Assembly (NCBI RefSeq): GCF_003977755.1
Contig: NZ_RQWN01000006.1
Coordinates: 1-64,000 of the forward strand
DNA from: Haloterrigena salifodinae
GTDB taxonomy: Archaea; Halobacteriota; Halobacteria; Halobacteriales; Natrialbaceae
Reading direction: 5' to 3'
Length of the DNA: 64,000 bases
Below, piece after piece: positions 20,265 to 61,881 of this stretch; position 1 is the first letter of the stretch; each line of letters begins with the position of its first letter. Under the pieces are notes generated by a model, which did not search any database, was not told the DNA's origin, and saw only the letters and a program-made list of their open reading frames with translations. Made by a program: the position numbers and the translations under genes.

Positions 20265-22745
20265 CTAACGGCCGACGTCGACCGTCGTTTCGCTCCCGTC
20301 GTAGGTCACCGTCGTCTGCGACTCGGCCTCGTCGACACCGGTGCCGACGCCCCGCTCGACGGGGACGATCCGGAACTCCCGCGTTTCGGTCAGTTCGGGG
20401 AACCAGCCCTCGCGGTCGCCGATCGCGAGTTCCCCGGCAGGATCGTCCCACGCGATCGGCGTCACCGCGTACTCCCCGTCCTCGTACGCGTATCCGTCGC
20501 CGGCATCCTCGTAGAGCTCGAACGAGCCGTCGCGGCCGGGGTAGACGCGCAGTGTCCACGGGGCGTCGGGCCGTTCCTCGGTGTGTTGGACGACTGGGCC
20601 CATCGGGACGACGCTCCCCGCGCGGACGAACAGCGGAAGCTTCTCGAGGGGCGCGTCGGCGAGGATCGTCTGCCCGCCCTCGTAACGCTCGCCCGTCCAG
20701 AAGTCGTACCACGCCGCGCCGTCGGGGAGGTAGACCTCGCGGGCTTTTGCCCGTCCCTCGAGGGGCGTCGAGCCGGGGCCGTAGTACATCGGTTCGGTGA
20801 CCGGACAGACCAGCAACGCCGGGCCGAACATGAACTGGTCGACGATCTCGTGGACGCGGTCGTCCTCGCGGAACTCGAACGCGAGGTGGCGGAACATCGT
20901 GTACTCGTCGCGGGTTTCCCATCCCGCCAGCGAGTAGATGTACGGAAGCAATCGGTAGCGCAGTTCGTCGAATTTCACGAGCGTGTCGTAGGTTCGATCG
21001 CCGGGTTCGCCGAAGCGCCACATCTCGCGGGGCGTGTTCGTTCCGTGCGAGCGAAACAGCGGCAGGAAAGTGCCGAACTGGAACCAGCGCGTGTAGAGCT
21101 CCCGATAGCCGAGGTCCTCGTGGCCCGCGTCGAAGTCGCCGTTCGCGTAGAACTCATCGTCGGTGTTGTCTTCGACGAAAAAGGCGCCGATGTCGAGGGT
21201 CCACTTCGGGTTCCCGGTGACGGTGAACTGCAGCCCGTCGGCGATCTGTCTCTCGAAGCGGTCCCACGTCGCCTCGATATCGCCTGACCAGGTGACCGCG
21301 CCGTAGCGCTGCTGGCCCGGATACCCGCTCCGCGTGAGGTTGAGTACCCGTTTTTCCTCGGTCGTCGACCGCTGTCCCTTGTAGAGTCCTTTCGCCTGGT
21401 AGAGCGAGTAGGCGTTGGTGTAGGCTGGATCGAAGACCCGCTTGTAGTCGCTCGCAATCAACTCGAGGCGTTGTTCGGGCTCGAGGGGGTCCTCGAGCCC
21501 CCAGTTGGGGTTGTACGGCTCCGTCGAGTCGGCCCACCAGGCGTCGACGCCGTGGGAGAACAGCCCTTCCTCGGCCTGGTTCCAGTACAGGTCCCGCGCG
21601 TCCTCGGAGAAGACGTCGTAGTAGTGGACTTCGTTGTCGGGCGCCGAGAGGTCGCCGTCGTCGAGCAGGTGGCCCGCCGCGGCCATCTCCTCGTGGTCCT
21701 CGCCGGTGATCATGTTCGGCCAGATGGAGAGCATCAGGCGCACGTTACGTTCGTGCAGTTCGTCGGTCAGCGCGTCGGGATCGGGGAATCGCGACGGTTC
21801 GAACGACTTCTGGCCCCAGCGTCCCCAGTCGCCTTCCGGGCCGCCCCACGACTCGAAATCGGGGTCGTCCGCCGTCGAATCGGGCCAGTACTGCCAGTCC
21901 TGGACGATGCAGTCGAGCGGAATCTCCCGGTCGCGGTACTCGTCGACAACCTCGAGGAGTTCGTCCTGACTCGTATAGCGCTCTTTCGACTGTACGTAGC
22001 CGTAGGACCACTTCGGGAGCATCGTCGCGTCACCCGTCAGCCGGCGAACGCCGGAGACGACGTCGTCGAGTTCCGGTCCGTAGACGAAATAGAAATCGAG
22101 TTCGTCCACGCACTCCGACCAGACGTACGTGCCGTGGCGGTCGTCGTGGAACGTCGATAGCGAGTAACTGTCGAACAGGAACCCGTACCCGCGCGTAGAG
22201 ACGAACACGGGCATCGCCACCTTCGTGTTGTGCTGGTAGAGGTGCTGATCGCGTCCGCGGTAGTTCGCGATGCCGTCGTCGTGCTGGCCGAGCCCGTAGA
22301 TCGCCTCGTCCGCGGCGAACTCGAGGGACAGCTTCGTCGAGTACGCCTCGCGCTCGAGCGTCTCTACCGGCGTCGCGGCGTTCTCGCCGGCCAGTTCGGC
22401 GACGTCGACGGGGCAGCGTTCCTTCCCGCCGTCGCGGGGCTCCCGGACCAGCAACTCGCCGTCGGCGTCACGCCACGTGAGCGCGCAGGTGTCCTTTGCG
22501 AGGTCGACCCGGAGCGTGTCGGTCTCGAGCGTGACCGTCGCCTCGCCGTCGGTCACTGACCAGTCGACGTCGGTTGCGGGTTGCTCGACGATCATCGGGC
22601 TCTCGGTCGACGGCTCGGTGATCGAGTCGCCGTCCGTCGCGACAACCCTGACGACGGCGTCGTCGATGATTTGGAGCTTCAACAACCCCTCGTCGGTTCG
22701 AATGCGCGGACCGTCCGGTTCCGATCGGAGTGCCTCGAACTGCAT
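20265..22745 (-). CDS. glycoside hydrolase family 31, alpha-xylosidase/alpha-glucosidase
   Basis: An 826-residue GH31 enzyme. An N-terminal galactose-mutarotase-like domain (IYGLGQHDDGIANYRGRDQ) precedes the TIM barrel. The catalytic nucleophile is the Asp in DAWWADSTEP near residue 405, and the acid/base is the Asp in WSGDIEATW near 485; a C-terminal beta domain (DUF5110-like) ends the protein. The barrel start PKWSYGYVQSKERY and IVQDWQYW are typical of alpha-xylosidase-type GH31 proteins, but alpha-glucosidase activity cannot be excluded. There is no signal peptide from ATG 22745, so it should be cytoplasmic; upstream in-frame starts to 23003 run through AT-rich promoter sequence. It is divergent from the secreted beta-galactosidase. 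Confidence 0.9.
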   Translation of the reverse strand: MQFEALRSEPDGPRIRTDEGLLKLQIIDDAVVRVVATDGDSITEPSTESPMIVEQPATDVDWSVTDGEATVTLETDTLRVDLAKDTCALTWRDADGELLVREPRDGGKERCPVDVAELAGENAATPVETLEREAYSTKLSLEFAADEAIYGLGQHDDGIANYRGRDQHLYQHNTKVAMPVFVSTRGYGFLFDSYSLSTFHDDRHGTYVWSECVDELDFYFVYGPELDDVVSGVRRLTGDATMLPKWSYGYVQSKERYTSQDELLEVVDEYRDREIPLDCIVQDWQYWPDSTADDPDFESWGGPEGDWGRWGQKSFEPSRFPDPDALTDELHERNVRLMLSIWPNMITGEDHEEMAAAGHLLDDGDLSAPDNEVHYYDVFSEDARDLYWNQAEEGLFSHGVDAWWADSTEPYNPNWGLEDPLEPEQRLELIASDYKRVFDPAYTNAYSLYQAKGLYKGQRSTTEEKRVLNLTRSGYPGQQRYGAVTWSGDIEATWDRFERQIADGLQFTVTGNPKWTLDIGAFFVEDNTDDEFYANGDFDAGHEDLGYRELYTRWFQFGTFLPLFRSHGTNTPREMWRFGEPGDRTYDTLVKFDELRYRLLPYIYSLAGWETRDEYTMFRHLAFEFREDDRVHEIVDQFMFGPALLVCPVTEPMYYGPGSTPLEGRAKAREVYLPDGAAWYDFWTGERYEGGQTILADAPLEKLPLFVRAGSVVPMGPVVQHTEERPDAPWTLRVYPGRDGSFELYEDAGDGYAYEDGEYAVTPIAWDDPAGELAIGDREGWFPELTETREFRIVPVERGVGTGVDEAESQTTVTYDGSETTVDVGR

Positions 22746-22978
22746 ACACAGACGAAGTCGGTCCGATCCCTTTACTGTTGCTATCACAACAGGTCGGGAT
22801 CGTCGACGACGTCGGCGGCGATCGAGTTCGCACGGCGTTCGCGCCTCGCCGCCCCCGTCCGATTCTATCGGTGAGACGGCCCCAAACGGAGGGGATGACT
22901 GTCTTTCCGCCACGATATATAATATATCATCCCGGTACGAACATTTATTATTAACGTTATCATTATCTATCATTCCGA

Positions 22979-25900
22979 ATGGGAAGCGAACAACCCGATT
23001 CACGGCGGAGTGCAGTCGATGGTACAGTACCGATCTCCCGACGGAACGTGTTGCTGGCCTCGGGGGCCGTCACCCTCCTCCCCGGCCTCGCGGCCGGCGG
23101 TCGAACGGACGACCCGATACCCGATCGATCGCCGGGCGATCTCGATCTCGAGGCGTACCTTGAGAATCCGGCGACGGTCGCGGAAAACCAGACCGAACCG
23201 CACGTCCCGACGATCCCGTATCCGTCCGTCGAGGCGGCCCTCGCTGGGGACCGACGGTGTGCGTCGCCGAGCGAGCGACGGGATCGGTCGCCGTTCGTCC
23301 GATCGCTCGAGGGCGAGTGGGAGTTCGTCTGGTCGCTCACGCCCGACGGCGCGCCGGACGACTTCGACGCGGTCGACGACTGGGACCGGATCGACGTCCC
23401 GTCGGTCTGGCAGACGGAGGGCTACGGCCACGCCATGTATCGGAACGTTCCGGTACCGATGACTCCCTACGAGCCGCCCGAAGTACCCGACACCATCAAC
23501 CCGGTCGGGACCTACCGCCGGACGGTGACGGTGCCGGGGAACTGGACGAACGACCGACGGACGTTCCTCCGGTTCGAGGGGGTCAAGTCCGCCGCCTTCG
23601 TCTGGGTGAACGGCCGGTACGTCGGCTACGATCAGGGCTCGATGACGCCGGCCGAGTTCGACGTCACCGATGCCCTCGAGCCCGGCAAAAACACGGTCGC
23701 CGTACAGGTGTACCGGTGGTCTGATGGCACCTACCTCGAGAACCAGGACATGTGGCACTTCGCGGGTATCTACCGGGACGCGTACCTGTACTCGACGCCG
23801 CAGGTTCACCTCCGCGACTACGCCGTTCGCACCGAGTTAGACGAGAGCTACGAGGACGCGACGCTTACAGTAGACGCCGAAGTCGCCGACCTCTCGACGG
23901 CGGATGCAGACGGGGACGGGCGCGGAAGAGGGAAAAACGGTGGGGGCGAAAACGGGAAGAGACACGGAAGAGCGAACGGAAACGGTACGTCCGGCTCGTA
24001 CGCTCTCCGCGCGCAGCTGTTCGATCCGGACGGCGATCACGTGACGACGGTCGAGGAGGACGCCGACGTCCCAGCCGGCGACAGTGTCGGCGTCACGCTC
24101 GAGGCCCACGTCTCGGACCCGCACAAGTGGTCCGCGGAACACCCCCACCTCTACCGGCTCGGGCTCGAACTTGTTCCGTCCGGCTCGAACCGGCCGCTCG
24201 AGGCCCAACTCGAGCGCGTGGGGTTTCGCGAGTACGAGATCGTCGACGGACAGGTCCGCGTCAACGGCGCGCCCGTCGAGTTCAGGGGCGTCAATCGCCA
24301 CGAACACGACCCCGTGAGCGGCCGGACGATGACGACCGAGCGGATCCGCGAGGACCTCGAGTTGCTGAAGCGATCCAACGTCAACGCGATCCGCACCTCA
24401 CACTACCCGAACGATCCCAAGTTCGCCGCACTGGCCGACGAGTACGGCTTCTACGTACAAGACGAGGTCAACGCCGAGACCCACCAGAACGAGGAACTCG
24501 TCAACGAACACCCCGAGTTCGATCCGTCGTTCATGGATCGGTTCCGCAGCATGGTTCAGCGCGACAAGAACCACCCGTCGATCTTCACGTGGAGCACCGG
24601 TAACGAAGCCGGTCTCGGCCCCGCCCACGTCGAGATGGCCGACTACGCGACCGACGTCGACGACACGCGCTTTCTCTATCACCAGGCCAACAACGGCGGC
24701 GTCGCCCCGTTCGCGCCGATCATCGGCCCGCGGTACATCAGCCCCGACGAACTCGAGGGCTTCGCGCTCGACGAGGACGAGGACCGACCGGTGATCATGG
24801 GCGAGTACAGCCACGCAATGGGCAACAGCTTGGGGCTCATGGAGCCGTTCTGGGAGACGATTCACGAGCGCGACCAGCTTCAGGGCGGCTTCATCTGGGA
24901 CTGGGTCGACCAGACGTTGTACGAGGACCTGACGATCACGCCCGACGAGAGCGGCACCGGGAACGACGGGGCCCTCCACGGCAACCCTTCGATCGTCGAG
25001 ACCGACCGCGGGAGCGCGCTCGCCCTCTCCGGACTCGACGACTGGGTGGAACTCTACAGGGACCCGAGTCTCGACGTCACCGAGCCTGGGCTCACCGTGG
25101 AGGCCGTCATCAAGCCGCGGGAGCCCTGGACCGGCGCGGATCCGTACGTCACGAAGGGCGACACCCAATACGCCCTCCAGATGGCCGACGAGGAGACGCT
25201 GGAGTGGTTCGTCTACGATCCCGACGAGGAGTGGATCACCGTCAGCGCGCCGGTGCCGGACGACTGGACCGGCTCCTGGCACCACGTCGCGGGCGTCCAC
25301 ACCGGCGCCGAACTGCAGCTGTACGTCGACGGCGAACTGCTCGAGACGACCGAGCACGACGGCGATATCGGACATGCCCGCCAGCCCGTCAACGTCGGGC
25401 GAAACGCGACGCTGCACACCGACGGCTACGAGGGCTGGCTGTCCAACGCCGTCTTCGATTCGGTCCGCATCTACGACCGCGCGCTCTCGCCCGCGGAACT
25501 CGCGTCCGACCGCGCCGCCGACGATGCGATCCTCGACCTCGCGTTCGAGGAGTTCCGCGACGAGGGAACGTTCCGCTCGTACGGCGTGAGCCCCTTCTGT
25601 ATCAACGGAACGATCTTCGCCGACCGCACCCCGCAGCCGGAGCTGTGGGAACTGAAAAAGGCCCACCAGCCCGTCGGAATCGACCCGGTCGATCCGGCCG
25701 CGGGCGTCGTCGAGATCCACAATCGGTTCCACTTCACGCCCCTCTCGGCCCTCGAAACGATCTGGGAGCTGACCGACGGCGAGACGGTGCTACAGGACGG
25801 CGTCCTGTCGCTCGAGGTCGAACCGGGAGCGACGCGGGACGCGACCGTCCCGTTCGATGAGCCCGATCTCGAGCCGGGTGCGGAGTACTGGCTGACCATC

Positions 25901-26041
25901 AGCGTCGCGCTTGCCGAGGATACCAAGTGGGCCGACGCCGGCCACGAGGTGGCCTTCGAACAGTTCGCGGTCCCCTTCGACGTCCCGGAACCGCCGCTCG
26001 AGCGAATTGACTCGATGCCGAGCACCTCGGTGAGCCGATGA
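22979..26041 (+). CDS. GH2 beta-galactosidase large chain with inserted LamG domain, Tat-exported
   Basis: A 1020-residue protein. It opens with a Tat signal (ISRRNVLLASGAVTLLPG, residues 19-36). GH2 sugar-binding, immunoglobulin-like and TIM-barrel domains follow. The acid/base Glu is in WSTGNEAGLG near residue 543 and the nucleophile Glu in GEYSHAMGNS near 608. Between the barrel and LacZ domain 4 there is an extra concanavalin/LamG-type domain at about 660-845 (TVEAVIKPREPW, WHHVAGVHTGAELQLYVDG), probably a carbohydrate-binding insertion. A low-complexity Gly/Asn/Lys/Arg-rich loop at about 305-340 is unusual for this acidic protein. The LacZ domain 5 is encoded separately by the next gene. 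Confidence 0.9.
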   Translation: MGSEQPDSRRSAVDGTVPISRRNVLLASGAVTLLPGLAAGGRTDDPIPDRSPGDLDLEAYLENPATVAENQTEPHVPTIPYPSVEAALAGDRRCASPSERRDRSPFVRSLEGEWEFVWSLTPDGAPDDFDAVDDWDRIDVPSVWQTEGYGHAMYRNVPVPMTPYEPPEVPDTINPVGTYRRTVTVPGNWTNDRRTFLRFEGVKSAAFVWVNGRYVGYDQGSMTPAEFDVTDALEPGKNTVAVQVYRWSDGTYLENQDMWHFAGIYRDAYLYSTPQVHLRDYAVRTELDESYEDATLTVDAEVADLSTADADGDGRGRGKNGGGENGKRHGRANGNGTSGSYALRAQLFDPDGDHVTTVEEDADVPAGDSVGVTLEAHVSDPHKWSAEHPHLYRLGLELVPSGSNRPLEAQLERVGFREYEIVDGQVRVNGAPVEFRGVNRHEHDPVSGRTMTTERIREDLELLKRSNVNAIRTSHYPNDPKFAALADEYGFYVQDEVNAETHQNEELVNEHPEFDPSFMDRFRSMVQRDKNHPSIFTWSTGNEAGLGPAHVEMADYATDVDDTRFLYHQANNGGVAPFAPIIGPRYISPDELEGFALDEDEDRPVIMGEYSHAMGNSLGLMEPFWETIHERDQLQGGFIWDWVDQTLYEDLTITPDESGTGNDGALHGNPSIVETDRGSALALSGLDDWVELYRDPSLDVTEPGLTVEAVIKPREPWTGADPYVTKGDTQYALQMADEETLEWFVYDPDEEWITVSAPVPDDWTGSWHHVAGVHTGAELQLYVDGELLETTEHDGDIGHARQPVNVGRNATLHTDGYEGWLSNAVFDSVRIYDRALSPAELASDRAADDAILDLAFEEFRDEGTFRSYGVSPFCINGTIFADRTPQPELWELKKAHQPVGIDPVDPAAGVVEIHNRFHFTPLSALETIWELTDGETVLQDGVLSLEVEPGATRDATVPFDEPDLEPGAEYWLTISVALAEDTKWADAGHEVAFEQFAVPFDVPEPPLERIDSMPSTSVSR

Positions 26042-26159
26042 CCGGGAGCGCCGTCGACGCGACCGACCGCCCGCGACCCAGCCGGCGTCAGATCGATGCG
26101 GCGCGGACTGACGGACAGCGGTTTCGAACGAATTCACACCGACGACCACGGACGAGCAC

Positions 26160-27800
26160 ATGACAGACAACGTTCAAACGGCGATCGACGGACCGAATTT
26201 CGAGTACACCTTCGACGCGGATCGCGGGACGCTTCGCTCCCTCGAGGCGGACGGCCGCGAGTTCCTCGCTCGCGGGCCGCTGTTGAATGTCTGGCGGACG
26301 CCCATCTCGAACGAGATGGTCGACTGGGGGACGGCGGAGGTCGAGGAGTGGTACGAACTCGGTCTCGACCGGCTCGAACACGCGGTCGAATCGTTCGAGA
26401 TCTCCGATATCGCCGACGGCGTCACCCGCGTCGAGATTACGACGCTGGTTTCCGCGCCCGACGCCGACGCCGGCTTCGAAACGACGTATCTGTATCACGT
26501 CTTCGGGACAGGCGACGTGCTACTCGGCGTGCGCGCGGAACCGAACGACGCCCTTCGCGAAGGGATCACGAACTGGCTCCCGCGCGTCGGCGTCCAACTC
26601 GAGGTGCCCGACGCGTTCTCGGAGTTCTCGTGGCACGGGAACGGACCGGTAGAGACCTACCCGGACCGCAATAACGGCACGGAGATCGGCACCTACGCCG
26701 GCGCCGTCTCCGAGCAGTACGTCCCCTACGTCCGGCCCCAGGAGTACGGCAACAAAACGGACGTCAGGTGGGCGACGCTCTCGGCGGCGGACGGCGCCGG
26801 ACTCGCCGCGTTCGGTCGGCCGACGGTCAACGTCAGCGCCCACGGCGTGGCGAACCTCGATCGGGCGCTGTTCGACTACCAACTCGAGGAGCGCGACGGC
26901 GTGCTGTTCAACGTCGACCACGCCGTGACCGGCGTCGGCGGCACCCCCGTCCAACCGAGCCCGGAGCACCGCGTCGTCCCCGACGGCCCCTTCGAGTTCG
27001 TCGTCGGATTCCGCCCCCGGACGGCGGACGATCCGTCGCCGATGGAGCTCTCGCGCCGGCGCCTCCCGTACGCGTTCGCCTCGACGAGCCCCGTCGGCGG
27101 ATTCGAGGCCGAACACGACGCGGACGAGGGGACGATCACCGCGTCCGCGGTCGTCAGGAACGCGGACGCGCAACCGGAGCGGATCGACGTCCCGCTGACC
27201 GTCAACGACGAGGTGGTCGCGAGCCGAACGGTCGACCTCGCTCCCGGCGAGAAGACGACCGTCTCGTTCGAGCACGACGTGCCCGAAACCGGCGTGTTCG
27301 AGGTGCGCGTCGGTGACGAACCGCCGCTCCTGTTTACCGCTCCCCAGCTCTCGCTCGAGGGCGAGTGGCGGTTCCGCGAGGGGGACGACCCCGCGTGGGC
27401 CGAGCCGGAGTACGACGACGGCGACTGGGAGGTCGTCAACGTGCCGGCGACCTGGGAGGCCCACTCCGAGTACACCGAAAACGATGTCTTCGGCTGGTAC
27501 CGGACGACGTTCGACGTTCCCGAAAGCTGGGCCGGCTACGCCCTCGAGCTCCCACTCGGCGCGATCGACGACGTCGACGAGACGTTCCTCAACGGCGAGA
27601 AGATCGGACAGACCGGCACGTTCCCCGAAGACGGGTTCGAGACCGCGTGGAGCGAACCGCGACGGTACACCGTCGACCCGTCGACCGTCGCGTTCGGCGG
27701 CGAGAACGCGATCGCGATCCGGGTGTACGACGGCGGTGGCGGCGGCGGACTGCACGACGGGCCGCTCGGCCCGATCACGGTGGTGCCGGCAGGCGACTGA
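26160..27800 (+). CDS. GH2 beta-galactosidase small chain plus extra jelly-roll domain
   Basis: A 546-residue protein whose first 290 residues match LacZ domain 5 (Bgal small chain): GPNFEYTFDADRGTLRSLEA, then LNVWRTPISNE, then SWHGNGPVETYPDR. A beta-sandwich of the CARDB kind (about 310-390) and a GH2-like sugar-binding jelly roll (about 395-545: LEGEWRFREGDDPAW, VFGWYRTTFDVP) follow. It lies 118 bp behind the large chain and should complete the active site as LacM does for LacL. It has no signal peptide, whereas the large chain has a Tat signal, so export would need joint transport of the folded complex. The reading frame between the two genes contains stops, so this is a real split and not one point mutation. 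Confidence 0.85.
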   Translation: MTDNVQTAIDGPNFEYTFDADRGTLRSLEADGREFLARGPLLNVWRTPISNEMVDWGTAEVEEWYELGLDRLEHAVESFEISDIADGVTRVEITTLVSAPDADAGFETTYLYHVFGTGDVLLGVRAEPNDALREGITNWLPRVGVQLEVPDAFSEFSWHGNGPVETYPDRNNGTEIGTYAGAVSEQYVPYVRPQEYGNKTDVRWATLSAADGAGLAAFGRPTVNVSAHGVANLDRALFDYQLEERDGVLFNVDHAVTGVGGTPVQPSPEHRVVPDGPFEFVVGFRPRTADDPSPMELSRRRLPYAFASTSPVGGFEAEHDADEGTITASAVVRNADAQPERIDVPLTVNDEVVASRTVDLAPGEKTTVSFEHDVPETGVFEVRVGDEPPLLFTAPQLSLEGEWRFREGDDPAWAEPEYDDGDWEVVNVPATWEAHSEYTENDVFGWYRTTFDVPESWAGYALELPLGAIDDVDETFLNGEKIGQTGTFPEDGFETAWSEPRRYTVDPSTVAFGGENAIAIRVYDGGGGGGLHDGPLGPITVVPAGD

Positions 27801-27874: not shown

Positions 27875-28987
27875 TTACCGTTGCTCCGCGAGCGGCGAGT
27901 CAGAATCGATCTGCTCGGACAGGAACTCCCGTACCTCGACCGCCTCGCCGGTCTCGGCGCTCTCGATGGCGGCGAAGACGATCGCCATCGACCGGAGGTT
28001 CGCGCGGGCGTTCGTCTCCATCGGCTCGCCGCCGGCACACCACTCGGCGAACCGCTCGACGAGCAGGGCGTTCCCCCACTTCTTCCCGCTCTCGAGGGTG
28101 ATCGGCTCGCCCGCCTCGAGCGATGTGTGGCCGAGACAGTTCTCCGCAGACCGCTCGTAGGGGAACCGACGGAGTTCGCCGTCGTCGAGGACCAGCGAGG
28201 CGTCCCGACAGTTCGCCCGGATGCGTTCCGCCCACCAGCCGTTGAAACTGGTCGCGGCCGTGTTCAGTCCTTCGTAGACGATCGTCGTCCCATTGTCCAT
28301 GCCCAGTTGCACGATCGCGTTCGGATCGCCCGCGAAGTCGGAGTACTCCGGGTTCCATGAGCGACAGAACACCGTTTCGGCGCGCCCGCCGGCCAGATCT
28401 GCCAGCAGATCGAGGTGGTGGATCGCGCCGTCGACGAGCAGCGGCTGTTCCTCGATGTCGTACAGCCGTTCGCCGGCCCAGCTCCCGCGGGACCGGGCGT
28501 TGACCGCGTACCGACAGTACAGGTAATCGACGGGGCCGTCCTCGCCCGATCGAAGCCGCCGCCGGAGCGAGGTAACGTCCCGCCGAAACCGGTGGCTCAT
28601 CGTGACGCCCAGCTTCGTGTCGCTCTCTTCGACCAGTTCGACGATCTCGACGGTGTCGTCCATCGACGCGGCGATCGGCTTCTCCGTGAGTATCTCGAGG
28701 TCGTGATCGATCGCGAGCGAGACGAGTTCCGTTCGAGCGCCGGGCGGGACGACGAGCGCCACGGCGTCCGCGTCGCGCCCGTGTTCCGCCATCGCCGTCT
28801 CGGCGTCCGTATAGCACTCGGCCTCTGAGAGCGGAAGCGCCTCGACTGCGTTCGTCAGCGCCCCCTCGTTCACGTCGACGGCCGCGACGACCTCGACGGT
28901 CCCGTCTTCGACGTTCGGCGGGAGGAACTCCCGACACCAGGCTTCGCCCTGGTTTCCCGTCCCGAGCTGTATCACTCGACAGGTCAC
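27875..28987 (-). CDS. Gfo/Idh/MocA-family oxidoreductase
   Basis: A 370-residue NAD(P)-dependent sugar or inositol dehydrogenase-like protein. The N-terminal Rossmann fold starts VIQLGTGNQGEAWC; the catalytic EKP motif is in ILTEKPIAASMDD near residue 97, and the second conserved helix has a putative active-site His in DGAIHHLDLLADLAGG near 190. It is convergent with the beta-galactosidase small chain. The substrate is unknown; in this neighbourhood oxidation of galactose, xylose or a deoxysugar is likely. Confidence 0.85.
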   Translation of the reverse strand: MTCRVIQLGTGNQGEAWCREFLPPNVEDGTVEVVAAVDVNEGALTNAVEALPLSEAECYTDAETAMAEHGRDADAVALVVPPGARTELVSLAIDHDLEILTEKPIAASMDDTVEIVELVEESDTKLGVTMSHRFRRDVTSLRRRLRSGEDGPVDYLYCRYAVNARSRGSWAGERLYDIEEQPLLVDGAIHHLDLLADLAGGRAETVFCRSWNPEYSDFAGDPNAIVQLGMDNGTTIVYEGLNTAATSFNGWWAERIRANCRDASLVLDDGELRRFPYERSAENCLGHTSLEAGEPITLESGKKWGNALLVERFAEWCAGGEPMETNARANLRSMAIVFAAIESAETGEAVEVREFLSEQIDSDSPLAEQR

Positions 28988-29179: not shown

Positions 29180-32125
29180 TCACTCGAGTTGGATCGTGTG
29201 CACGCGGACGTCGCCGCCGCGAACCACGACGTAGAGGTCCCTGTTGTTCCCGTTGGCGTGCTCCAGCGACAGCGTCCGCTCAGCGTACTCGTAGACGCCA
29301 CCCGTCGAGGGGACCCCCGTCCGACCGAGCAGCGGTCCAGACGGCGAGCCCCGGCGTAGTTGTAGCGTCGCCTCGCCCTCGTCCGCTCTGGCGACCGAGA
29401 CGGTCGCTTTAGTCGGCTTGCTCCGCAGGTCGACGTCCGCGAACGAGAGCCACGAGCCGTCGGTCATGCCGACGACCGTCCCCGCAGAACGCGACCGGTC
29501 GAGGAGTTCGATCTCCGACCACGACCAGTCGTCGGCGTCGACGGCCCGCGTCGTCGCGGAGAGGTCCCGCGGCGGGATCGTCTCGCCGTCGACGCGGATC
29601 GATCCGCGCTCCCGGATATCGTCGGACGCGGCGCCGACGAGCACCGAGTGCGTCGCCCGCTCGACGACCCGCTGCCGGCGCGTGACGTCCCAGAACGAGA
29701 ACTCGTTGTACCCGACCGAGAACTCGACGGTCACGCTCTCGCCGGGCTCGAGGTGGATCCGCTCGAACCCGCGTAGCACCCGCTCGGGCTGGTCGGTTCG
29801 GGACTGGCGCTGGCGGGTGTAGAACTGGACGACTTCGTCGGCGGCCGTCGAGCCGGTGTTGGTGACCTGAACGCTGACGGTCGCCGTCTCGCCGGGCTCG
29901 AGCGGCCCCGTCGGCGAGATGCGGCGATCGTCGTACTCGAAGCTGCTGTAGGAGCGCCCGTGTCCGAACGCGTACAGGGGGTCCGCCTGTCCGTAGCGGT
30001 AGGTCATCCCCGTCTCGGCGATGTTGTACTCGGTGATATCGGGGAGGCGATCGGCCGAGCGCGGCCAGGTCTGGGTCAGCCGGCCGCCGGGGGAGACGTC
30101 GCCGACCAGCACGTCCGTCAGCGCGCGCCCGGTCTCCTGCCCGGCGTGGCTGGTCCAGAGGATCGACGGCACGCGGTCCTCGACGCCCTCGAGGTGGACC
30201 GGGTAGCTGCTCTGCAGGACGACCGCGGTATCCGGCTGGGCGTCGCTGACGCGCTCGACGAGTTCGCGCTGGGAGTGCGGGAGGGCGAGCGTCTCTCGAT
30301 CCTGTGTCTCGCGGCCGCCCATCAGCGGGTGCGTGCCGACCGCGATGACCGCGGCGTCGGCGTCGCGCGCGGCCTCGACCGCCGCTTCGATTCCGTCGGT
30401 TCGCACTTCGACGTCGAACCTGGCGGCGTCCGCCTGTGCGTCGGCGCTGGCCCGTAGCGTTCCCTCCTCGACGGTCACGTAGCTGTCGCTGCCGGGATGG
30501 TACAGGACGACTGCATCGCCGACGTCGACGAACTCGAAGGCCTCGTCGACCACCTCCCAGCCCCCGGGTCCGTCTGAGGAGTTGACCAGTTCGTCCCCGT
30601 CGACGGTCACGTACCGCTCGTTGGCCGTCGCCCGGAGCGTCCAGGCGTCGTCCGTCCACTGGATCCGTTCGAACAACTGCACGCTGGGCGCGTCGGTGCT
30701 CTGCAGCCCAAGGACGCCGCCGCCCTTGCCGACGCCGGCCGACACGTAGTCGCCGGACGAGCGCTCTTTGAGTGCGATCCGATCGGCGCCGACGTCGGTG
30801 CGGAGCCGGCCGGGACCGAATCGATCCCGCAGTCCCTCGCGAAGGGTGATCCGGTACGGCATCGTACCGCTGTACCAGTCCTCGAACACCCGATCGGAGA
30901 GCGGCCCCACGACGGCGACAGTGTCGTCCGTCGAGAGCGGGAGCACGCCGTCGCCGTCACCGCCGTTCTCGAGCAGGACGGTCCCCTTTCGCGCCGCCTC
31001 GCAGGCGAGTTCGCGGTGGTCCTCGTGGCCGATGACGTCCTCGGTGAGATCGGCGTAGGGGTCTTCCGAGGGCTCGAGGAACTCCCCGAGCAGCGAGCGC
31101 ACCGTCAGCACGTGGCCGGCGGCCCGGTCGAGATCTGTCTCGTCGAGATGCCCGTCCTCGATCGCACCCAGTAGCGCGTCGGTCGTCGTCGAGTTATCGG
31201 CGCCGAACTCGGTGAAGCTGTCGAGTCCCGCGAGTACCGCGGCGGCGCGCGCTTCCGCATCCGAGTCGAAGTACGCCTGGTCGCCGGTCAGATTCACCGG
31301 CGCCCAGGCGTCGCTGACGTTCATGATCGCGTTGCCGTCGGGCGCCCACTCCCGAACTCCGTCCAGCAACGGCGAGACCGTCATCGGTCGACCGTTGACG
31401 AGGTTGTACGAGGCCATGACGCCGGCCGCGGTTCCGGATTCGATCGGATCCCGGAAGAAGGGAAGATAGTACTCGCGGAGGAGCCGCGGCGGCAACTCGG
31501 CGTTGGTCGTTGTGCGCTCAGTCTCGTTGTTGTATCCGATGTAGTGTTTGAGTATCGGCGCCGTCTTGAGGTACGTCGGATGGTCGCCGGTCAACCCGTC
31601 CGTGTAGGCCGTCGCGATCTCGCCGCTCACCAGCGGATCTTCGGCGTACCCCTCCTCGTTGCGGCCCCAGCGGGGGTCGCGGAGGGGGTCGACCGTCGGC
31701 GACCAGATGTTGAGGCCGACGCCGCCGTCCGTTGCGTTGTGTTTCCCGCGCACTTCGTCGCCGACGGCGTCGCCGACGCGCTCGACTAGGTCCGGATCCC
31801 ACGTGCTCCCGAGGCCAATCGCCTGCGGAAAGACAGTCGCCTCGCCCAGCCACGCGACGCCGTGGAGCGCTTCCGTCCCGGTCCGGAACGCGTCCAGTCC
31901 GGCGCTCGGAATCGGCGGCTGATACTGGTGGAGCAACGACGCCTTCTCGTCGATCGTGAGTCGCTCGAGGAGGTCGGCGATTCGGTCGTCGAACGGTACC
32001 TCGGACGTCCCGTCGTCCCGGTCGTCGGTTCCATCGATTTCGGCAGTTGCGATGCCCCCGACGAGGGACAGCCCCGTTCCCGCTCCGATACCTGCGAGTA
32101 CGTCTCTGCGTTGCTGGCTAACCAT
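29180..32125 (-). CDS. glycoside hydrolase family 3 (beta-glucosidase/beta-xylosidase), Tat-exported
   Basis: A 981-residue GH3 enzyme. ATG 32125 gives a Tat signal (VSQQRRDVLAGIGAGTGLS). The barrel domain contains KHYIGYNNETERT and the nucleophile Asp in MNVSDAWAP near residue 272. The alpha/beta sandwich is interrupted at about 470-570 by a beta-trefoil/fascin-like module (ERYVTVDGDELVNSS, DSYVTVEEGTLRASA). A fibronectin-III-like domain (EPGETATVSVQVTNTG) and a C-terminal CBM6-like sandwich (MTDGSWLSFADVDLRSKP) complete it. Upstream in-frame codons to 32248 precede the signal and are rejected as a start. Beta-glucosidase or beta-xylosidase activity is likely, acting outside the cell. Confidence 0.9.
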   Translation of the reverse strand: MVSQQRRDVLAGIGAGTGLSLVGGIATAEIDGTDDRDDGTSEVPFDDRIADLLERLTIDEKASLLHQYQPPIPSAGLDAFRTGTEALHGVAWLGEATVFPQAIGLGSTWDPDLVERVGDAVGDEVRGKHNATDGGVGLNIWSPTVDPLRDPRWGRNEEGYAEDPLVSGEIATAYTDGLTGDHPTYLKTAPILKHYIGYNNETERTTTNAELPPRLLREYYLPFFRDPIESGTAAGVMASYNLVNGRPMTVSPLLDGVREWAPDGNAIMNVSDAWAPVNLTGDQAYFDSDAEARAAAVLAGLDSFTEFGADNSTTTDALLGAIEDGHLDETDLDRAAGHVLTVRSLLGEFLEPSEDPYADLTEDVIGHEDHRELACEAARKGTVLLENGGDGDGVLPLSTDDTVAVVGPLSDRVFEDWYSGTMPYRITLREGLRDRFGPGRLRTDVGADRIALKERSSGDYVSAGVGKGGGVLGLQSTDAPSVQLFERIQWTDDAWTLRATANERYVTVDGDELVNSSDGPGGWEVVDEAFEFVDVGDAVVLYHPGSDSYVTVEEGTLRASADAQADAARFDVEVRTDGIEAAVEAARDADAAVIAVGTHPLMGGRETQDRETLALPHSQRELVERVSDAQPDTAVVLQSSYPVHLEGVEDRVPSILWTSHAGQETGRALTDVLVGDVSPGGRLTQTWPRSADRLPDITEYNIAETGMTYRYGQADPLYAFGHGRSYSSFEYDDRRISPTGPLEPGETATVSVQVTNTGSTAADEVVQFYTRQRQSRTDQPERVLRGFERIHLEPGESVTVEFSVGYNEFSFWDVTRRQRVVERATHSVLVGAASDDIRERGSIRVDGETIPPRDLSATTRAVDADDWSWSEIELLDRSRSAGTVVGMTDGSWLSFADVDLRSKPTKATVSVARADEGEATLQLRRGSPSGPLLGRTGVPSTGGVYEYAERTLSLEHANGNNRDLYVVVRGGDVRVHTIQLE

Positions 32126-32322
32126 TTCGGACAACTCCGTCCTCAGTGTACCGTAATGATATTGAAAAAGATACTCGATTATATTTATTCTCATATGGCG
32201 AAATAAAGAGAAATCGAACGACGGAACGCCGAGTAGCGTGTTGACCACAGTTGCTCGCTTCGGGCCGGTGGAACGTAATTCGGATCAGCAGTCGATCCGC
32301 GGTTCATGTCGATGGACGCTAA

Positions 32323-32329
32323 TCTTTAT
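32323..32329 (+). promoter_or_regulatory. TATA box of the ABC ATPase gene
   Basis: TCTTTATG about 29 bp before ATG 32358, pointing to a leaderless transcript and supporting this start over the in-frame ATG at 32328, which overlaps the box. Confidence 0.45.
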
Positions 32330-32357
32330 GGGGACACTCGATAAACGAACTCGTGGT

Positions 32358-33497
32358 ATGGGTTCAGTTCGCCTGGAAAACGTTACCAAGCGGTACAGCG
32401 ACGTCACGGCGGTCGACGACATGAACATCACCATTGAGGACGGCGAGTTCGTCTCGTTCGTCGGCCCCTCCGGCTGTGGCAAGTCCACAACGTTGGAGAT
32501 GATCGGTGGCCTGACTACGCAGTCCGAGGGGAGCGTCTACATCGACGGGACCGACGTCACCGACCTCCCGCCGAAGGATCGGAACCTCGCGATGGTCTTC
32601 CAGAACATCGCGCTGTTCCCCCACATGGACGTCTTCGACAACATGAGCTACGGGCTCCGGATACGGGGCGCCGAGGACGAGGCCATCGAACGGCGAGTCG
32701 ACGAGGCCGTCGAGACCCTCAAACTCGAGGGGATGTTAGACCGCATGCCGAGCGAACTGTCCGGCGGGCAGCGACAGCGCGTCGCCATCGGTCGCGCCAT
32801 CGTCCGGGATCCCGAGGTGTTCCTCATGGACGAGCCCCTGGCGAACTTAGACGCGAAGCTGCGGGTACATATGCGCACGGAACTCCAGCGCATTCAGCGC
32901 AAACTGGGGGTAACGGCGATCTACGTCACCCACGATCAGGAGGAGGCGATGACGATGTCCGACCGCGTGGCGATCATCAACGACGGCGAACTCCAGCAGA
33001 TCGCGCCGCCCCTGACGTGCTACGAGGAGCCGACGAACGTCTTCGTCGCCGGCTTCATCGGCTCGCCGTCGATGAACTTCCTCGAGGGGACGGTCGCGGA
33101 CGGCCGCTTCGAGTCGGAGATCGTCTCCCTCGACGCGCCCGGCGTGGACGCGTCGACCGACGTCACGCTCGGGGTCCGGCCGGAAGACATCTATCCTGTC
33201 GACGATCACCGCGCTCCGGCGACGGTCGGCACCGTGCGCGCCGACGTCGACGTGATCGAACCGATCGGGGAGAAGATGTTCGTCTACCTCCGGCCGGCGG
33301 CGGCCGATTCGCCGGTCGAGGAACGGGGCCGCACGGAACGCGACTCCCTGCTCATGAGCGTCAGTCCGGAGACGGAACTCGCGGAGGACGAGGTGATCGA
33401 GGTCACATTCGATCAGTCCAGCATCCACCTGTTCGACGCGGCGTCCGGAAACGCCCTCGTCCACGGTCTGGAACGGGAGCCGACCCCGACAACCTGA
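32358..33497 (+). CDS. CUT1-type sugar ABC transporter ATPase (MalK/UgpC-like)
   Basis: A 379-residue ATPase: Walker A GPSGCGKST at 36-44, Q-loop in AMVFQNIALFPHM, signature LSGGQRQRVAIGRA near 134, Walker B VFLMDEPLANLDAK near 154, His switch in VTHDQEEAM. The C-terminal 140 residues are the OB-fold regulatory domain of MalK-type proteins (LGVRPEDIYPV). It has its own promoter, 230 bp before the substrate-binding protein and the two permease genes it probably energises. The same ATPase may serve other CUT1 importers of the cell. Confidence 0.92.
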   Translation: MGSVRLENVTKRYSDVTAVDDMNITIEDGEFVSFVGPSGCGKSTTLEMIGGLTTQSEGSVYIDGTDVTDLPPKDRNLAMVFQNIALFPHMDVFDNMSYGLRIRGAEDEAIERRVDEAVETLKLEGMLDRMPSELSGGQRQRVAIGRAIVRDPEVFLMDEPLANLDAKLRVHMRTELQRIQRKLGVTAIYVTHDQEEAMTMSDRVAIINDGELQQIAPPLTCYEEPTNVFVAGFIGSPSMNFLEGTVADGRFESEIVSLDAPGVDASTDVTLGVRPEDIYPVDDHRAPATVGTVRADVDVIEPIGEKMFVYLRPAAADSPVEERGRTERDSLLMSVSPETELAEDEVIEVTFDQSSIHLFDAASGNALVHGLEREPTPTT

Positions 33498-33698
33498 GCG
33501 AGACCAGAGATATCGATGGACTGAGAGAGACCTGGACGATCACTGAACTGGTCGAGACCAGAGCGTCCCTACGGGACGGAGACTGGAGCCGTTACCGGTC
33601 CGAATGGATGCGGAACTGTTCACACCGAGGAAGCTGATCGGTCGCGAGCGACCGCACTGGCGACGATAATTGGCCGACGGTCTTATTCGAGGAAAAAT

Positions 33699-33707
33699 AT
33701 TTATACT
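33699..33707 (+). promoter_or_regulatory. TATA box of the CUT1 importer operon
   Basis: ATTTATACT, 21 bp before ATG 33728. The distance indicates a leaderless transcript starting at the ATG. Confidence 0.55.
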
Positions 33708-33727
33708 TGCTTACGGTTGTTGTGATT

Positions 33728-35167
33728 ATGCATGACAGCCGCAGCACGGACGCTGCTAGCGCTGGCAGTGTGCTCCGTCGACGACGGTTCGTAATCACAG
33801 CGGGCGCGACCGCCACCGCCGGCCTCGCCGGCTGTTATGGCGGGGGGAGCGACGACGCGCTCCAGCTCACTGCCACGAACGAGTGGCGGAACAACAGCGA
33901 CGAGATAACGCAGGCGCTGTACGACGCGGGCCTCTCCGAAGACATCGAGCTGGAACTGATCAGCGGCGGACAGACCACCGACGAGATGCAGAACCAGTAC
34001 TCCCAGTGGCTCTCGTCCAGACAGGAGAAACCGGACCTGCTGGCGTTCGACAGCGGGTGGACGCTGCCGTTTATCGTCCGGGGGCAGCTCCAGAACCTCG
34101 AGGGAGAGCTGCCGTCGGACGTCCTCGATACCGTCCACGAGGACTACTTCGAACAGAGCGTCAACACCACGACCGACTCGGACGGAGAACTCTACGGCGT
34201 CCCGCTGTACCCCGACTTCCCGACGATCCAGTACCGGAAGGATCTGGTCGAAGACGCGGGGTACGACTGGGAACAGTACCGGACCGATCCGCTGTCGTGG
34301 GAGCAGTTCTCCCACGAACTGCAGGACGTCTACGAGCAGGCGGACGTCGCGTACGGCTACAACTGGCAGGCCGCCTCCGAGATCCAACTGGCCTGCTGCG
34401 TGTTCAACGAGTTCGTCACCTCGTGGGGCGGGGCGTACTTCGGCAACCCCGAGGAGTACCTCTACGGGCCGATCGGCGATCGCCCCGTGACGATCGACGA
34501 GGAGCCCGTCCTCCAGTCGCTTCGGATGGCGCGGACGTTCATCCACGGAACGGACGCGCCGGACACGCTCGACGAATTCGCCGGTGGCATCACCTCCGAG
34601 GAGGCATTCCAATGGGGACTGTCACCCTCGATGCAGCCGTTTACCGACGGCGACGCCGTCGCGCTGCGCAACTGGCCGTACTCGATCAACATCAACGGCG
34701 CCGACGACGCGCTCGGCGAGGACATGGGCGTGATGCCGATGCCGTACGGCGTCCCCGAGGGCGAAGGCGAGTACCCCGGCACCGGCGGCTCGATCGGCGC
34801 CCTCGGCGGCTGGAACTACTGCGTGAATCCGAACACGGACCGGCTCGACGACGCCCTCGCGTTTCTGGAGACGCTGACGTCGCCGGAGTTCCAGCGGGCG
34901 AACTTCGAACTTGTCGGTCACATCCCGCCGAACCCGGACATCCTCGAGGACGCGACCGACGTGTCGATCATGGGTCGGTACCTCGAGCCGCTCTCGTTCG
35001 CCGGCGATCACACGATGGCTCGTCCGGCGACGGCGGTGTGGAGCCAGCAGTCGGATCCCGTCGCCCAGGAGGCCAACGCTGCGCTAATGGGCGACACCGG
35101 CGTAGAGGACGCGATGTCGGAGCTCGCCTCGCGGCTGACCGACCTCGAGGAATCGTTCGAATCATGA
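33728..35167 (+). CDS. CUT1-type sugar ABC transporter substrate-binding lipoprotein
   Basis: A 479-residue protein with a Tat/lipobox signal (RRRRFVITAGATATAGLAGC), so it is probably anchored by lipid at Cys after export. The mature protein is an extracellular solute-binding protein family 1 type: DEMQNQYSQWLSSRQEKPDL, GVPLYPDFPTIQYRKDLVED, TGGSIGALGGWNYCVNP. ATG 33728 fits the TATA box; the TTG at 33707 lies inside the promoter. Its stop overlaps the next gene by 4 bp (ATGA). Position between GH31/GH2/GH3 and the isomerase gene suggests that it binds an oligosaccharide released by those enzymes. Confidence 0.92.
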   Translation: MHDSRSTDAASAGSVLRRRRFVITAGATATAGLAGCYGGGSDDALQLTATNEWRNNSDEITQALYDAGLSEDIELELISGGQTTDEMQNQYSQWLSSRQEKPDLLAFDSGWTLPFIVRGQLQNLEGELPSDVLDTVHEDYFEQSVNTTTDSDGELYGVPLYPDFPTIQYRKDLVEDAGYDWEQYRTDPLSWEQFSHELQDVYEQADVAYGYNWQAASEIQLACCVFNEFVTSWGGAYFGNPEEYLYGPIGDRPVTIDEEPVLQSLRMARTFIHGTDAPDTLDEFAGGITSEEAFQWGLSPSMQPFTDGDAVALRNWPYSININGADDALGEDMGVMPMPYGVPEGEGEYPGTGGSIGALGGWNYCVNPNTDRLDDALAFLETLTSPEFQRANFELVGHIPPNPDILEDATDVSIMGRYLEPLSFAGDHTMARPATAVWSQQSDPVAQEANAALMGDTGVEDAMSELASRLTDLEESFES

Positions 35168-36150
35168 GTACGGACGACCGCTCAGCGACGATCACCGGTG
35201 ATCGATCCCGGTATCGTCTCGACCTCGCGGTGCTCGACCGGATCGAGCGACTGAGCGATACGCAGTTCGTCTACGTGATGTTGCTCCCCGTCTTCGCGCT
35301 GCTCGGAACGATGGCCATCTGGCCGTTGCTCTACACGGCCAACATCTCACTGCACGCGGACAACATCGTGGCCACGAACCCGGTCGGCGAGTTCGTCGGC
35401 CTGGGGAACTACGTCGACATTCTCACCGGTCAGGCGAACCTCCAGCGGCCGTTTTTCAGCCTCGAGACCCCCTTCACAAGCGCCGTTCCGGTGACACTGC
35501 TGTTCACGGTCGGCGCGGTCGCCGTCGAAACGGTGTTCGGGCTCGCGATGGCGCTGATCCTGAATAAGGAGTTTCGCGGCCGACGGTGGGCGCGCGTCGC
35601 GATGATCCTTCCGTGGGCCGTCCCGATCGTCATTCAGGGGATGATCTTCTATCTCATGTTCCAGCCGTCGGTCGGGTTCGCTGTCGGTCCACTCAACGAA
35701 CTCGGGCTGATCTCGACGACGCCGCTCGCGACCAGCCGAGACGGGCTGTTGATCGCCATCCTGGCCGACGTCTGGAAGCAGTCGGCGTTCATGGCGCTGC
35801 TCATCCTCGCGGGCCTGCAGAGTATCGATCGGAGCCTCTACGACGTCGCCGACGTCGCGGGCGCGTCGAAACTCCAGCAGTTCCGGACGATCACGTTCCC
35901 GCTCGTGCTCCCGGCGCTCCTCGTGGCGCTGCTGTTCCGAACGATCGGGGCACTCAAGGTGTACGGACTTGTCGAGGCGACGTCGGGGTGTAACACGGTG
36001 CCGACGCTCAGCTGTCTCGTCATCGGGCTCTGGAACGGGAACAGGTACGGCTCCGCGGCGGCGGTCGCGTTCATCATCGCCGCCGTCATCGGCGTCCTGT
36101 TGCTGGGATACCTGGCCCAGCTACGGCGCCACGAACGGGGTGAGATGTAA
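35164..36150 (+). CDS. CUT1-type sugar ABC transporter permease (MalF/UgpA-like)
   Basis: A 328-residue membrane protein with six predicted helices. The inner-membrane EAA loop reads SIDRSLYDVADVAGASKLQQ near residues 220-239, the site that contacts the ATPase. The start ATG 35164 overlaps the stop of the binding protein gene (ATGA), so translation is coupled. The apparent longer frame upstream of 35164 is the binding protein gene in another frame. Confidence 0.92.
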   Translation: MSTDDRSATITGDRSRYRLDLAVLDRIERLSDTQFVYVMLLPVFALLGTMAIWPLLYTANISLHADNIVATNPVGEFVGLGNYVDILTGQANLQRPFFSLETPFTSAVPVTLLFTVGAVAVETVFGLAMALILNKEFRGRRWARVAMILPWAVPIVIQGMIFYLMFQPSVGFAVGPLNELGLISTTPLATSRDGLLIAILADVWKQSAFMALLILAGLQSIDRSLYDVADVAGASKLQQFRTITFPLVLPALLVALLFRTIGALKVYGLVEATSGCNTVPTLSCLVIGLWNGNRYGSAAAVAFIIAAVIGVLLLGYLAQLRRHERGEM

Positions 36151-43458: not shown

Positions 43459-43572
43459 CTCTCCCGATACACGCAGCATCAACACCTCAATTAATAAATT
43501 TTCTCACGTCCTAGGGAATGAATAAGACGGTAAGGATGACACTCTCATTTCGTTTAGTCCAATGTAACAACA

Positions 43573-60316: not shown

Positions 60317-60348
60317 TATAAGTGTCTGAATGTGCGATATCGATTCGC

Positions 60349-61881
60349 ATGACGGAGACTCATGATTGCAATGAACCGAATCGACGCAGCGTACTACGAA
60401 CACTCGGCGCCGGAGCGATCGGCACCGCGGGCATCCTCGGAGCTAGCGGATCGGGAAGTGCCGATCACGGCGGAGACCACTACTACAACCCGCTGTACGA
60501 GCCGCATTTTCCGGATCCGGAAGTCCACCGCGCCGCCGACGGTACGTGGTGGGCGTACGGAACGAACATGAATCGAGAGAACACCGAGGACGAGTTGCTC
60601 GTTCCGATCCTCTCCTCGACGGATCTGGTGAACTGGACTTACGAGGGCGAGGCGTTCGACACGCGACCCGGTTGGACCGATGGCTCGATCTGGGCCCCGG
60701 ACATCCACTATTACAACGACGAGTGGATCATGTTCTACTCGCTCGAGCCGCGGCCGTGGGAAAGCGGCGAGTTCGGTATCGGCCTCGCGACGTCCGAGAC
60801 GCCGAGGGAGCCGTTTACCGATCACGGACAGGTCATCGGGGACGGCGATACGGGCGGCGGAACCATCGACGCCTACTTCGTCGAGTATCAAGGGACACCG
60901 TACCTCTTCTGGGGGAGCTTTCAGGGGATCTACGTCGCGGAGCTTACGCCCGACCTGCGGGACGTCGATATGACGACGGTCACGCAGGTCGCTGGCGACG
61001 CCTACGAGGGGACGATTCACCACGAGCGCAACGGCTATCATTACCTGTTCGTTTCGACGGGGACCTGCTGTGAAGGCCACAGCAGCACGTACGAGTACGA
61101 AGTCGGTCGCTCCGAGTCGTTCTTCGGTCCGTACGTCGACCAGAACGGCGTCGACCTGATGGAGTACGACAAGCACAACCAAGGGACGCCGGTCCTCACC
61201 GGTACCGATCGGTTCCCGGGTGCGGCCCACGGGGACATCACGACGTACGACGACGGCTCGGAATGGCTGCTCTATCACGCGTACGACGCGGACGATCCGG
61301 AGTTTATCGACGGCGTCCCGCGGCGCGTGCTCATGATGGATCGGATCGACTGGGTAGACGGGTGGCCGGTGATCGGCTGCGACGGGACGCCGAGTGAGGT
61401 CACACCGGTACCGGGCAGCGGCACGCACTGCGGCGATACTGGTGACGGAACGCTCTCTGCGGGAACGTACCGAATCTCGAACCAAAACAGCGGGCTGTTG
61501 CTGGAGGTCGGGGATGCAGACACCAGCGAGGGAGAGAACGTCAACCAGTGGTCGGATACCGGGCATCCGTGCCAGGAGTGGGAGCTAATCGAACACGGCG
61601 ACGGGACCTACCGGCTGGAGAACGGCCACTCCGGACACGCGTTGTCGGTGGCGGACGGGTCGACGAGCGAGGGTGCGACGCTGGTCCAACGCGCCTGGGC
61701 GACCGCCGCCGATCAGCGCTGGCATCTTATCCAGGCCGCCGACGGCTCGTATCGACTCGAGAACGACGCCAGCGGATACGTCGCGGACGTGCTGGAGGCA
61801 TCGACTGACGACGGCGCTGACGTCATCCAGTGGAGTTGGCTGGGTGGCGATAATCAGCGGTGGCACTTCGATCCAGTCTGA
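60349..61881 (+). CDS. GH43 arabinanase/xylosidase with ricin-type lectin domain, Tat-exported
   Basis: A 510-residue secreted enzyme. Tat signal NRRSVLRTLGAGAIGTAG at residues 11-28. The five-bladed propeller contains the catalytic base Asp in HFPDPEVHRAADG near 55, the second Asp in DGSIWAPDIHYYND near 117 and the acid Glu in DAYEGTIHHERNG near 224. The C-terminal 140 residues (about 370-510) form a CBM13/ricin beta-trefoil with QEW, QRW and QRW repeats (GHPCQEWELIE, AADQRWHLIQ, DNQRWHFDPV). It probably cuts arabinan or xylan side chains outside the cell. It stands before the KdxD-like gene and a sugar-binding protein. Confidence 0.88.
   Translation: MTETHDCNEPNRRSVLRTLGAGAIGTAGILGASGSGSADHGGDHYYNPLYEPHFPDPEVHRAADGTWWAYGTNMNRENTEDELLVPILSSTDLVNWTYEGEAFDTRPGWTDGSIWAPDIHYYNDEWIMFYSLEPRPWESGEFGIGLATSETPREPFTDHGQVIGDGDTGGGTIDAYFVEYQGTPYLFWGSFQGIYVAELTPDLRDVDMTTVTQVAGDAYEGTIHHERNGYHYLFVSTGTCCEGHSSTYEYEVGRSESFFGPYVDQNGVDLMEYDKHNQGTPVLTGTDRFPGAAHGDITTYDDGSEWLLYHAYDADDPEFIDGVPRRVLMMDRIDWVDGWPVIGCDGTPSEVTPVPGSGTHCGDTGDGTLSAGTYRISNQNSGLLLEVGDADTSEGENVNQWSDTGHPCQEWELIEHGDGTYRLENGHSGHALSVADGSTSEGATLVQRAWATAADQRWHLIQAADGSYRLENDASGYVADVLEASTDDGADVIQWSWLGGDNQRWHFDPV

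Follow-up and report, generated by a model that had tools for sequence, protein, structure and literature searches.

A haloarchaeal LacZ-type beta-galactosidase divided between two genes and predicted to be exported on one Tat signal

How could an enzyme made as two separate chains be secreted when only one of them carries an export signal? This question is raised by two adjacent genes in the first 64,000 nucleotides of contig NZ_RQWN01000006.1 of Haloterrigena salifodinae (assembly GCF_003977755.1; the whole stretch is called the window here), which together encode a LacZ-type enzyme of glycoside hydrolase family 2 (GH2), a predicted beta-galactosidase. A sequence-only reading of the locus had placed LacZ domain 5 on the second gene, as in LacL/LacM, and had assigned a twin-arginine translocation (Tat) signal to the large chain alone, so that a folded heteromer would have to be exported together. 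With moderate confidence, we favor the interpretation that the pair is a secreted, LacLM-like heteromeric GH2 beta-galactosidase whose small chain would hitchhike through Tat on the large chain. The argument for co-export draws on ancestry, continuity of the linker, the associations of the added modules, and evolutionary constraint.

Five LacZ families (GH2_N, GH2, GH2_C, LacZ_4, and Bgal_small_N) scored above their Pfam cut-offs (5/5), divided between the two chains: the large chain holds domains 1 to 4, and the small chain holds domain 5 (Bgal_small_N, E 1e-54; Table 1), as had been read from the letters. The acid/base, nucleophile, and galactose-site motifs of LacZ were present (WSDGTYLE, NRHEHDP, SHYP, NAETH, GNEAG, GPRY, EYSHAMGNS, WDWVDQ, and FCING), and the large chain carries all of the catalytic residues. 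The large-chain model matched LacZ residues 3 to 732 (Z, 25 to 29; root mean square deviation [rmsd], 9 to 10 Å), with a mean predicted local distance difference test (pLDDT) score of only 65.8 and weak values around the active site. In the small-chain model (pLDDT, 75.5), residues 2 to 292 form the LacZ domain 5 fold (Z, 30.2; rmsd, 2.3 Å over 275 residues against domain 5 of 9m0e); the structural comparison returned only LacZ-like chains and so covers domain 5, not the jelly roll.

The export signal was likewise found on one side only. The large chain has the Tat motif ISRRNVLL, followed by 19 uncharged residues, although its Pfam TAT_signal score fell below the cut-off. A missed signal peptide on the small chain, which the sequence-only reading itself had named as contrary evidence, was looked for and ruled out: the small chain showed no RR motif, no hydrophobic stretch, and no start codon farther 5′ in frame, and the other frames held nothing. 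The jelly roll that had been read as an addition to the small chain was also recovered, as a GH2_N/BetaGal_ABD2-like module at about residues 398 to 522. This module also occurs on GH97 and 3-keto-disaccharide hydrolase-like proteins that bear Tat motifs, which fits an extracellular small chain. RefSeq labels the small chain a "beta galactosidase jelly roll domain-containing protein." As a separate observation, giant haloarchaeal Tat-motif proteins (L061-L063) combine 3-keto-disaccharide hydrolase, GSDH, NPCBM_assoc, jelly roll, LamG (laminin G-like), and cupredoxin domains.

A survey of homologues, which had been proposed along with the original claim, turned up eight more haloarchaeal genomes or plasmids in which the two genes stand side by side, broken at the same point of the linker; with the window, this makes nine records from several genera. 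Besides the window, these are Haloterrigena salina, H. salifodinae, Halosolutus gelatinilyticus (G378), Natrinema sp. SYSU A 869 (G402), the genomes designated here G186 and G276, and two Haladaptatus plasmids. The window small chain is 99% identical to that of the H. salifodinae record and 96% identical to that of H. salina. The large-chain Tat motif was present in 9/9 split records, and a small-chain signal in 0/9. In G186, the motif (SRRNVLLA) sits only in a shifted frame of the large chain, beside an undetermined base; this large chain (L074:4527-7781) also ends in an adapter-like translated run, LLYTSLMALASPLRDVYKRQ, and its damage is a probable assembly artefact. The G276 large chain (L075:7653-10667) has a lipobox-like Cys after the Tat core (LLPGLSECGS), which is absent from the other split orthologues, including those of Haladaptatus.

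Both halves of the enzyme are under purifying selection. The ratio of nonsynonymous to synonymous substitution rates (dN/dS) was 0.12 to 0.24 for domain 5 and 0.16 to 0.23 for the large chain, and it was higher for the CARDB-like and jelly-roll parts of the small chain (0.24 to 0.51). Family-conserved positions were kept at 57/61 sites in domain 5 versus 140/141 in domains 1 to 4; other clades kept a fraction of 0.89 to 0.98 in domain 5. In each of six genomes searched, the sole stand-alone full domain 5 gene lay directly behind the large-chain gene. The split is beyond chance and is not an artefact.

From what kind of enzyme did the pair arise? Most LamG-bearing haloarchaeal relatives are single chains of about 1370 to 1790 amino acids (aa) with a Tat-type signal. 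The LamG domain that the sequence-only reading had noticed between barrel and domain 4 is present in the window gene (E 1e-20) and is not peculiar to it: LacZ relatives have it too, many of the fused haloarchaeal ones and some of the bacterial ones, and a 2016 study reported LamG between GH2_C and DUF4981 in a few probably secreted GH2 enzymes (PMC5145203). We therefore do not regard the insertion as a novelty. The LamG-less enzymes examined had no signal. The haloarchaeal clade contains one nested group that lacks both LamG and a signal, and apart from this group its non-split members are fused enzymes with Tat-type signals; one LamG-bearing fused relative without a signal (G344) lies outside that clade. 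In trees computed without the LamG columns, the split pairs form one clade (Shimodaira-Hasegawa-like approximate likelihood ratio test, 100) within the haloarchaeal clade (support, 98 to 99). Bacterial relatives fall outside it, and all of them are fused save one probably broken gene of a metagenome-assembled genome (L022).

The linker tells how the two forms correspond. The split sequence ...FDVPEPPLERIDSMPSTSVSR / MTDNVQTAIDGPNFEYTFD matches the fused sequence ...FEVPEPSTVSVEGMAALSVDDAGDAVAVSGDGFEYAFD; the large-chain tail MPSTSVSR aligned to fused MAALSVDD and the small-chain start to the remaining linker, with no linker length lost. Taking the direction from the tree, we infer that one fission event parted domain 5 from domain 4 at the linker and that it occurred within a haloarchaeal clade whose enzymes are otherwise fused and for the most part bear Tat signals. 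By parsimony, the ancestor would have been fused, LamG bearing, and Tat exported. The CARDB-like and jelly-roll modules of the small chain were not seen on the fused relatives. Other variants were noted among these relatives: one or two further LamG domains inside domain 5 of fused haloarchaeal Tat enzymes (L068, L087, L089, and L104-L110), another LamG, close to or inside domain 2, in addition to the one that precedes domain 4 (L078:12843-17999 and L086:2941-7992), and a broken LamG-less LacZ that Natrinema sp. SYSU A 869 has in addition to its split pair (L103).

Tat translocates folded proteins. We lean, if only slightly, toward a Tat hitchhiker born by fission, in which domain 5 would have lost its covalent link to the signal and its export would now rely on assembly in the cytoplasm. 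A fused, Tat-exported, LamG-bearing haloarchaeal LacZ would have been broken once, in the domain 4-domain 5 linker. Domain 5 of the small chain would dock on domains 1 to 4 in the cytoplasm, as in LacZ, and the folded 1:1 complex (about 169 kDa) would leave via Tat on the large-chain signal, carrying the small chain as a hitchhiker. Because the mass of this complex lies above the 150 kDa quoted for Tat but within the range of about 152 to 195 kDa of the Tat-bearing fused relatives, any larger oligomers would probably have to be assembled outside the cell. There, the enzyme might cleave beta-galactosyl side groups from plant polysaccharide, while LamG and the jelly roll bind or space. If domain 5 was once exported attached to the signal-bearing chain and has kept its conserved positions, the simplest reading would be that it still docks on domains 1 to 4 and leaves with them. 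Hitchhiking, as proposed from the window alone, thus seems to gain comparative support from an ancestor in which domain 5 would have been part of a single Tat-exported chain. In halophilic archaea, Tat is the principal route of export (PMC2910488), and hitchhiking through it is established for HybOC and PaoABC (PMC4273604) and for the secreted MelC1/MelC2 pair (PMC2758597).

Several points weigh against co-export. A cargo of ~169 kDa is larger than the 150 kDa that Tat is quoted as transporting (PMC6708511); the Tat-bearing fused relatives weigh about 152 to 195 kDa, bracketing the complex. The N-glycosylation sequons and the composition of domain 5 were alike in signal-less and signal-bearing relatives. 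The counterpart of Escherichia coli W999 is missing from domain 5 in all members of the haloarchaeal clade, fused and split, which makes the active-site role of domain 5 uncertain; this domain might play a smaller part in catalysis here than it does in LacZ. At this site, which we take to be the W999 position and to be family variable rather than defining, the haloarchaeal clade reads GVGGTP versus GVGGDxSW in some bacterial relatives, and other bacterial relatives also lack the Trp. Finally, the trees give no firm branching order for the three lineages that diverge first within the haloarchaeal clade, and the parsimony argument for ancestral Tat export rests on that three-way fork.

Some of these points would also suit an exported large chain that acts by itself or through an altered interface, with the small chain remaining in the cytoplasm in another role. 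The lack of a small-chain signal, the catalytic residues all lying on the large chain, the unconserved W999 position, and the extra modules, through which the small chain could have acquired a new function, are in line with this arrangement. We nevertheless consider it unlikely, given that domain 5 keeps its family-conserved residues at low dN/dS, that the small gene always adjoins the large-chain gene, and that the jelly roll belongs to Tat-motif enzymes. More doubtful still is a complex that functions in the cytoplasm, its Tat-like segment not being an export signal. While the low TAT_signal score and the nested LamG-less LacZ group, which is signal-less and presumably cytoplasmic, speak for this possibility, the RR and hydrophobic core are kept among diverged split orthologues (about 60% identity) and most fused LamG relatives, and the GH3 and GH29 enzymes of the same locus also carry Tat-like signals.

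Two further explanations would restore a single chain. Recoding by frameshift or stop readthrough could fuse both open reading frames (ORFs) into one exported polypeptide: the G276 ORFs share one frame with one stop codon and a few codons between them, in H. salina and G378, the small frame has no stop where the large chain terminates, and PMC8037382 speaks of programmed frameshifting as known in archaea. In the window, however, the two ORFs lie in different frames, 118 bp apart, and two stops close the small frame: a TGA at 26109-26111 and one more shortly ahead of where the large chain ends. Orthologues differ in frame and gap length (12 to 118 bp), and every small ORF starts with an ATG of its own, placed identically relative to the domains. 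With window stops blocking the small frame and the frames not conserved, we rejected one-chain recoding as very improbable. The damaged large chain of G186 brings to mind a fused gene that a frameshift turned into a pseudogene or that only the assembly broke in two, but the same break recurs in independent assemblies from several genera, with purifying selection on both parts. Cross-genome comparisons and dN/dS refuted this explanation for the window, and we give it next to no weight.

Table 1. Coordinates of the split beta-galactosidase genes, their domains, and neighboring genes in the window
Feature	Position	Strand	Remarks
Large chain, 1020 aa	22979..26041	+	LacZ domains 1-4 with inserted LamG; ORF exactly as in the sequence-only reading
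Tat signal region	22979..23098	+	RR at residues 21-22; 19 uncharged residues; without lipobox Cys; kept in split orthologues
LacZ domain 1 (Glyco_hydro_2_N)	23300..23800	+	Pfam; residues 108-274
LacZ domain 2 (Glyco_hydro_2)	23804..24229	+	Pfam; residues 276-417
LacZ domain 3, TIM barrel (Glyco_hydro_2_C)	24236..24940	+	Pfam; residues 420-654; GNEAG acid/base and GEYSHAMGNS nucleophile motifs
Inserted Laminin_G_3 (LamG)	25037..25504	+	Pfam; residues 687-842; E 1e-20; same site in fused relatives
LacZ domain 4 (LacZ_4/DUF4981)	25709..25975	+	Pfam; residues 911-999
TATA-like box TTTATTATTA	22944..22953	+	~31 nt 5′ of large-chain ATG; consensus match only
118-bp gap	26042..26159	.	Site of former domain 4-domain 5 linker; without AT-rich promoter box like that of large chain
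Small chain, 546 aa, without signal peptide	26160..27800	+	ORF exactly as in the sequence-only reading
LacZ domain 5 (Bgal_small_N)	26190..26999	+	Pfam; residues 11-280; E 1e-54
CARDB-like domain	27129..27311	+	Pfam, below cut-off; residues 324-384; alignment to 6sd0 reaches residue 395
Added jelly roll (GH2_N/BetaGal_ABD2-like)	27351..27725	+	Residues about 398-522
GH31, divergent, without signal	20265..23003	-	ORF start overlaps large-chain start
Gfo/Idh/MocA oxidoreductase	27875..28987	-	Adjoins split pair in Natrialbaceae and Haladaptatus salinisoli
GH3 with CBM6, Tat-like signal	29180..32248	-	Conserved neighbor in Natrialbaceae
Sugar ABC transporter ATPase and permease	32238..36150	+	Conserved beside pair in Natrialbaceae
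GH29 alpha-L-fucosidase, Tat-like signal	41680..43485	-	Same locus, 14 kb from pair

The large-chain transcript is likely leaderless, judging from the position of the TATA-like box (Table 1). An AT-rich element with a TTATTAT core occupies the matching site 5′ of the large chains of H. salina, G378, and G402. Such a promoter-like box was absent before the small gene in 5/6 loci, and the gaps are short; therefore, both genes are likely on one transcript. A TTCGAAC element was also observed at least ~30 nt 5′ of the small-chain ATG in 4/6 split loci (window 26123-26129; L072, L074, and L076), and it could serve as a promoter element inside the pair or have arisen by chance.

The surrounding region looks like a plant-polysaccharide utilization locus, with predicted GH3, GH29, GH43-like, and GH31 enzymes and ABC transporters. 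The window, H. salina, and H. salifodinae all have a GH31 gene next to the pair; because the GH31 ORF start in the window overlaps that of the large chain, translation probably begins farther inside the ORF. A GH43-like arabinanase (window 60322-61881) has a Tat-like signal, as do the GH3 and GH29 enzymes. Together, the GH31, beta-galactosidase, fucosidase, and beta-glycosidase set recalls the xyloglucan enzymes of Xanthomonas (PMC8245568), and GH31, GH29, GH3, and the sugar ABC transporter tentatively suggest a fucosylated xyloglucan-like substrate. We keep this assignment tentative because GH31 and GH3 scored below NCBIfam equivalog cut-offs. In Natrinema sp. SYSU A 869 (G402; L076:1451-4494), the neighboring GH3 occupies two separate ORFs, and the C-terminal ORF carries the annotation of a carbohydrate-binding protein.

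What would such an enzyme add to known cases? In a limited search of the open-access literature, we found no description of a secreted split LacZ or of an archaeal hitchhiker glycosidase. Most of the Tat hitchhikers known are cofactor enzymes whose assembly has to take place inside the cell. If co-export holds, the pair would represent a hitchhiker in archaea that is not driven by cofactor insertion, separating the need for a cofactor from co-export, and the fused Tat-exported sister enzymes would serve as natural controls for a ready comparison. Organisms that rely on Tat would also offer, in this complex of about 169 kDa, a large and naturally occurring two-chain Tat cargo, useful for studying limits of size and assembly. 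Judged on sequence anatomy alone, the pair goes only modestly beyond LacLM and the GH2 enzymes that bear LamG.

The likeness to LacL/LacM drawn in the sequence-only reading holds for the separate, adjacent domain 5 gene and fails for the break point and for descent. In the LacLM of lactobacilli, as in the window, LacZ domains 1 to 3 are on the large chain and domain 5 is on the small chain, with adjacent genes in the same order. However, LacL stops short of domain 4 and is encoded by a gene overlapping lacM, whereas the window large chain holds domain 4 and LamG as well as a Tat signal, and the window small chain has two modules extra to LacM. LacLM filled only 20% of the domain 4 columns (Lactiplantibacillus plantarum pRI113_1). 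LacLM has been derived from fused enzymes through gene disruption (PMC5145203), and a single clade of the split pairs plus LacLM was rejected (approximately unbiased [AU] test, P = 0.0053; one long-branched L. plantarum LacLM pair). The AU test and the different break point, after domain 4, rule out descent from LacLM; the pair may be LacLM-like in function, but it is not a LacLM member by descent.

Closer to the window pair in architecture are the fused LamG-bearing LacZ enzymes of Halocatena salina, Halalkalicoccus jeotgali, and Haloterrigena turkmenica, which share its domain order, LamG site, Tat-type signal, and linker sequence but are one polypeptide, some with a further LamG inside domain 5. 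GH2 type 3 enzymes with a Laminin G3 insertion (PMC5145203) have LamG at the same site, also in a single polypeptide. Thermotoga maritima LacZ (6s6z and 6sd0) is the nearest solved relative of both chains by sequence and likewise has an extra domain after domain 5, but it is a single chain without LamG or jelly roll. In terms of export, HybOC and PaoABC (PMC4273604) and MelC1/MelC2 (PMC2758597) share with the window pair a signal on one subunit only. These systems involve metal cofactors or a helper, whereas the window pair, known from its sequence, is a predicted archaeal glycosidase without a known cofactor-loading need that would have arisen from one chain.

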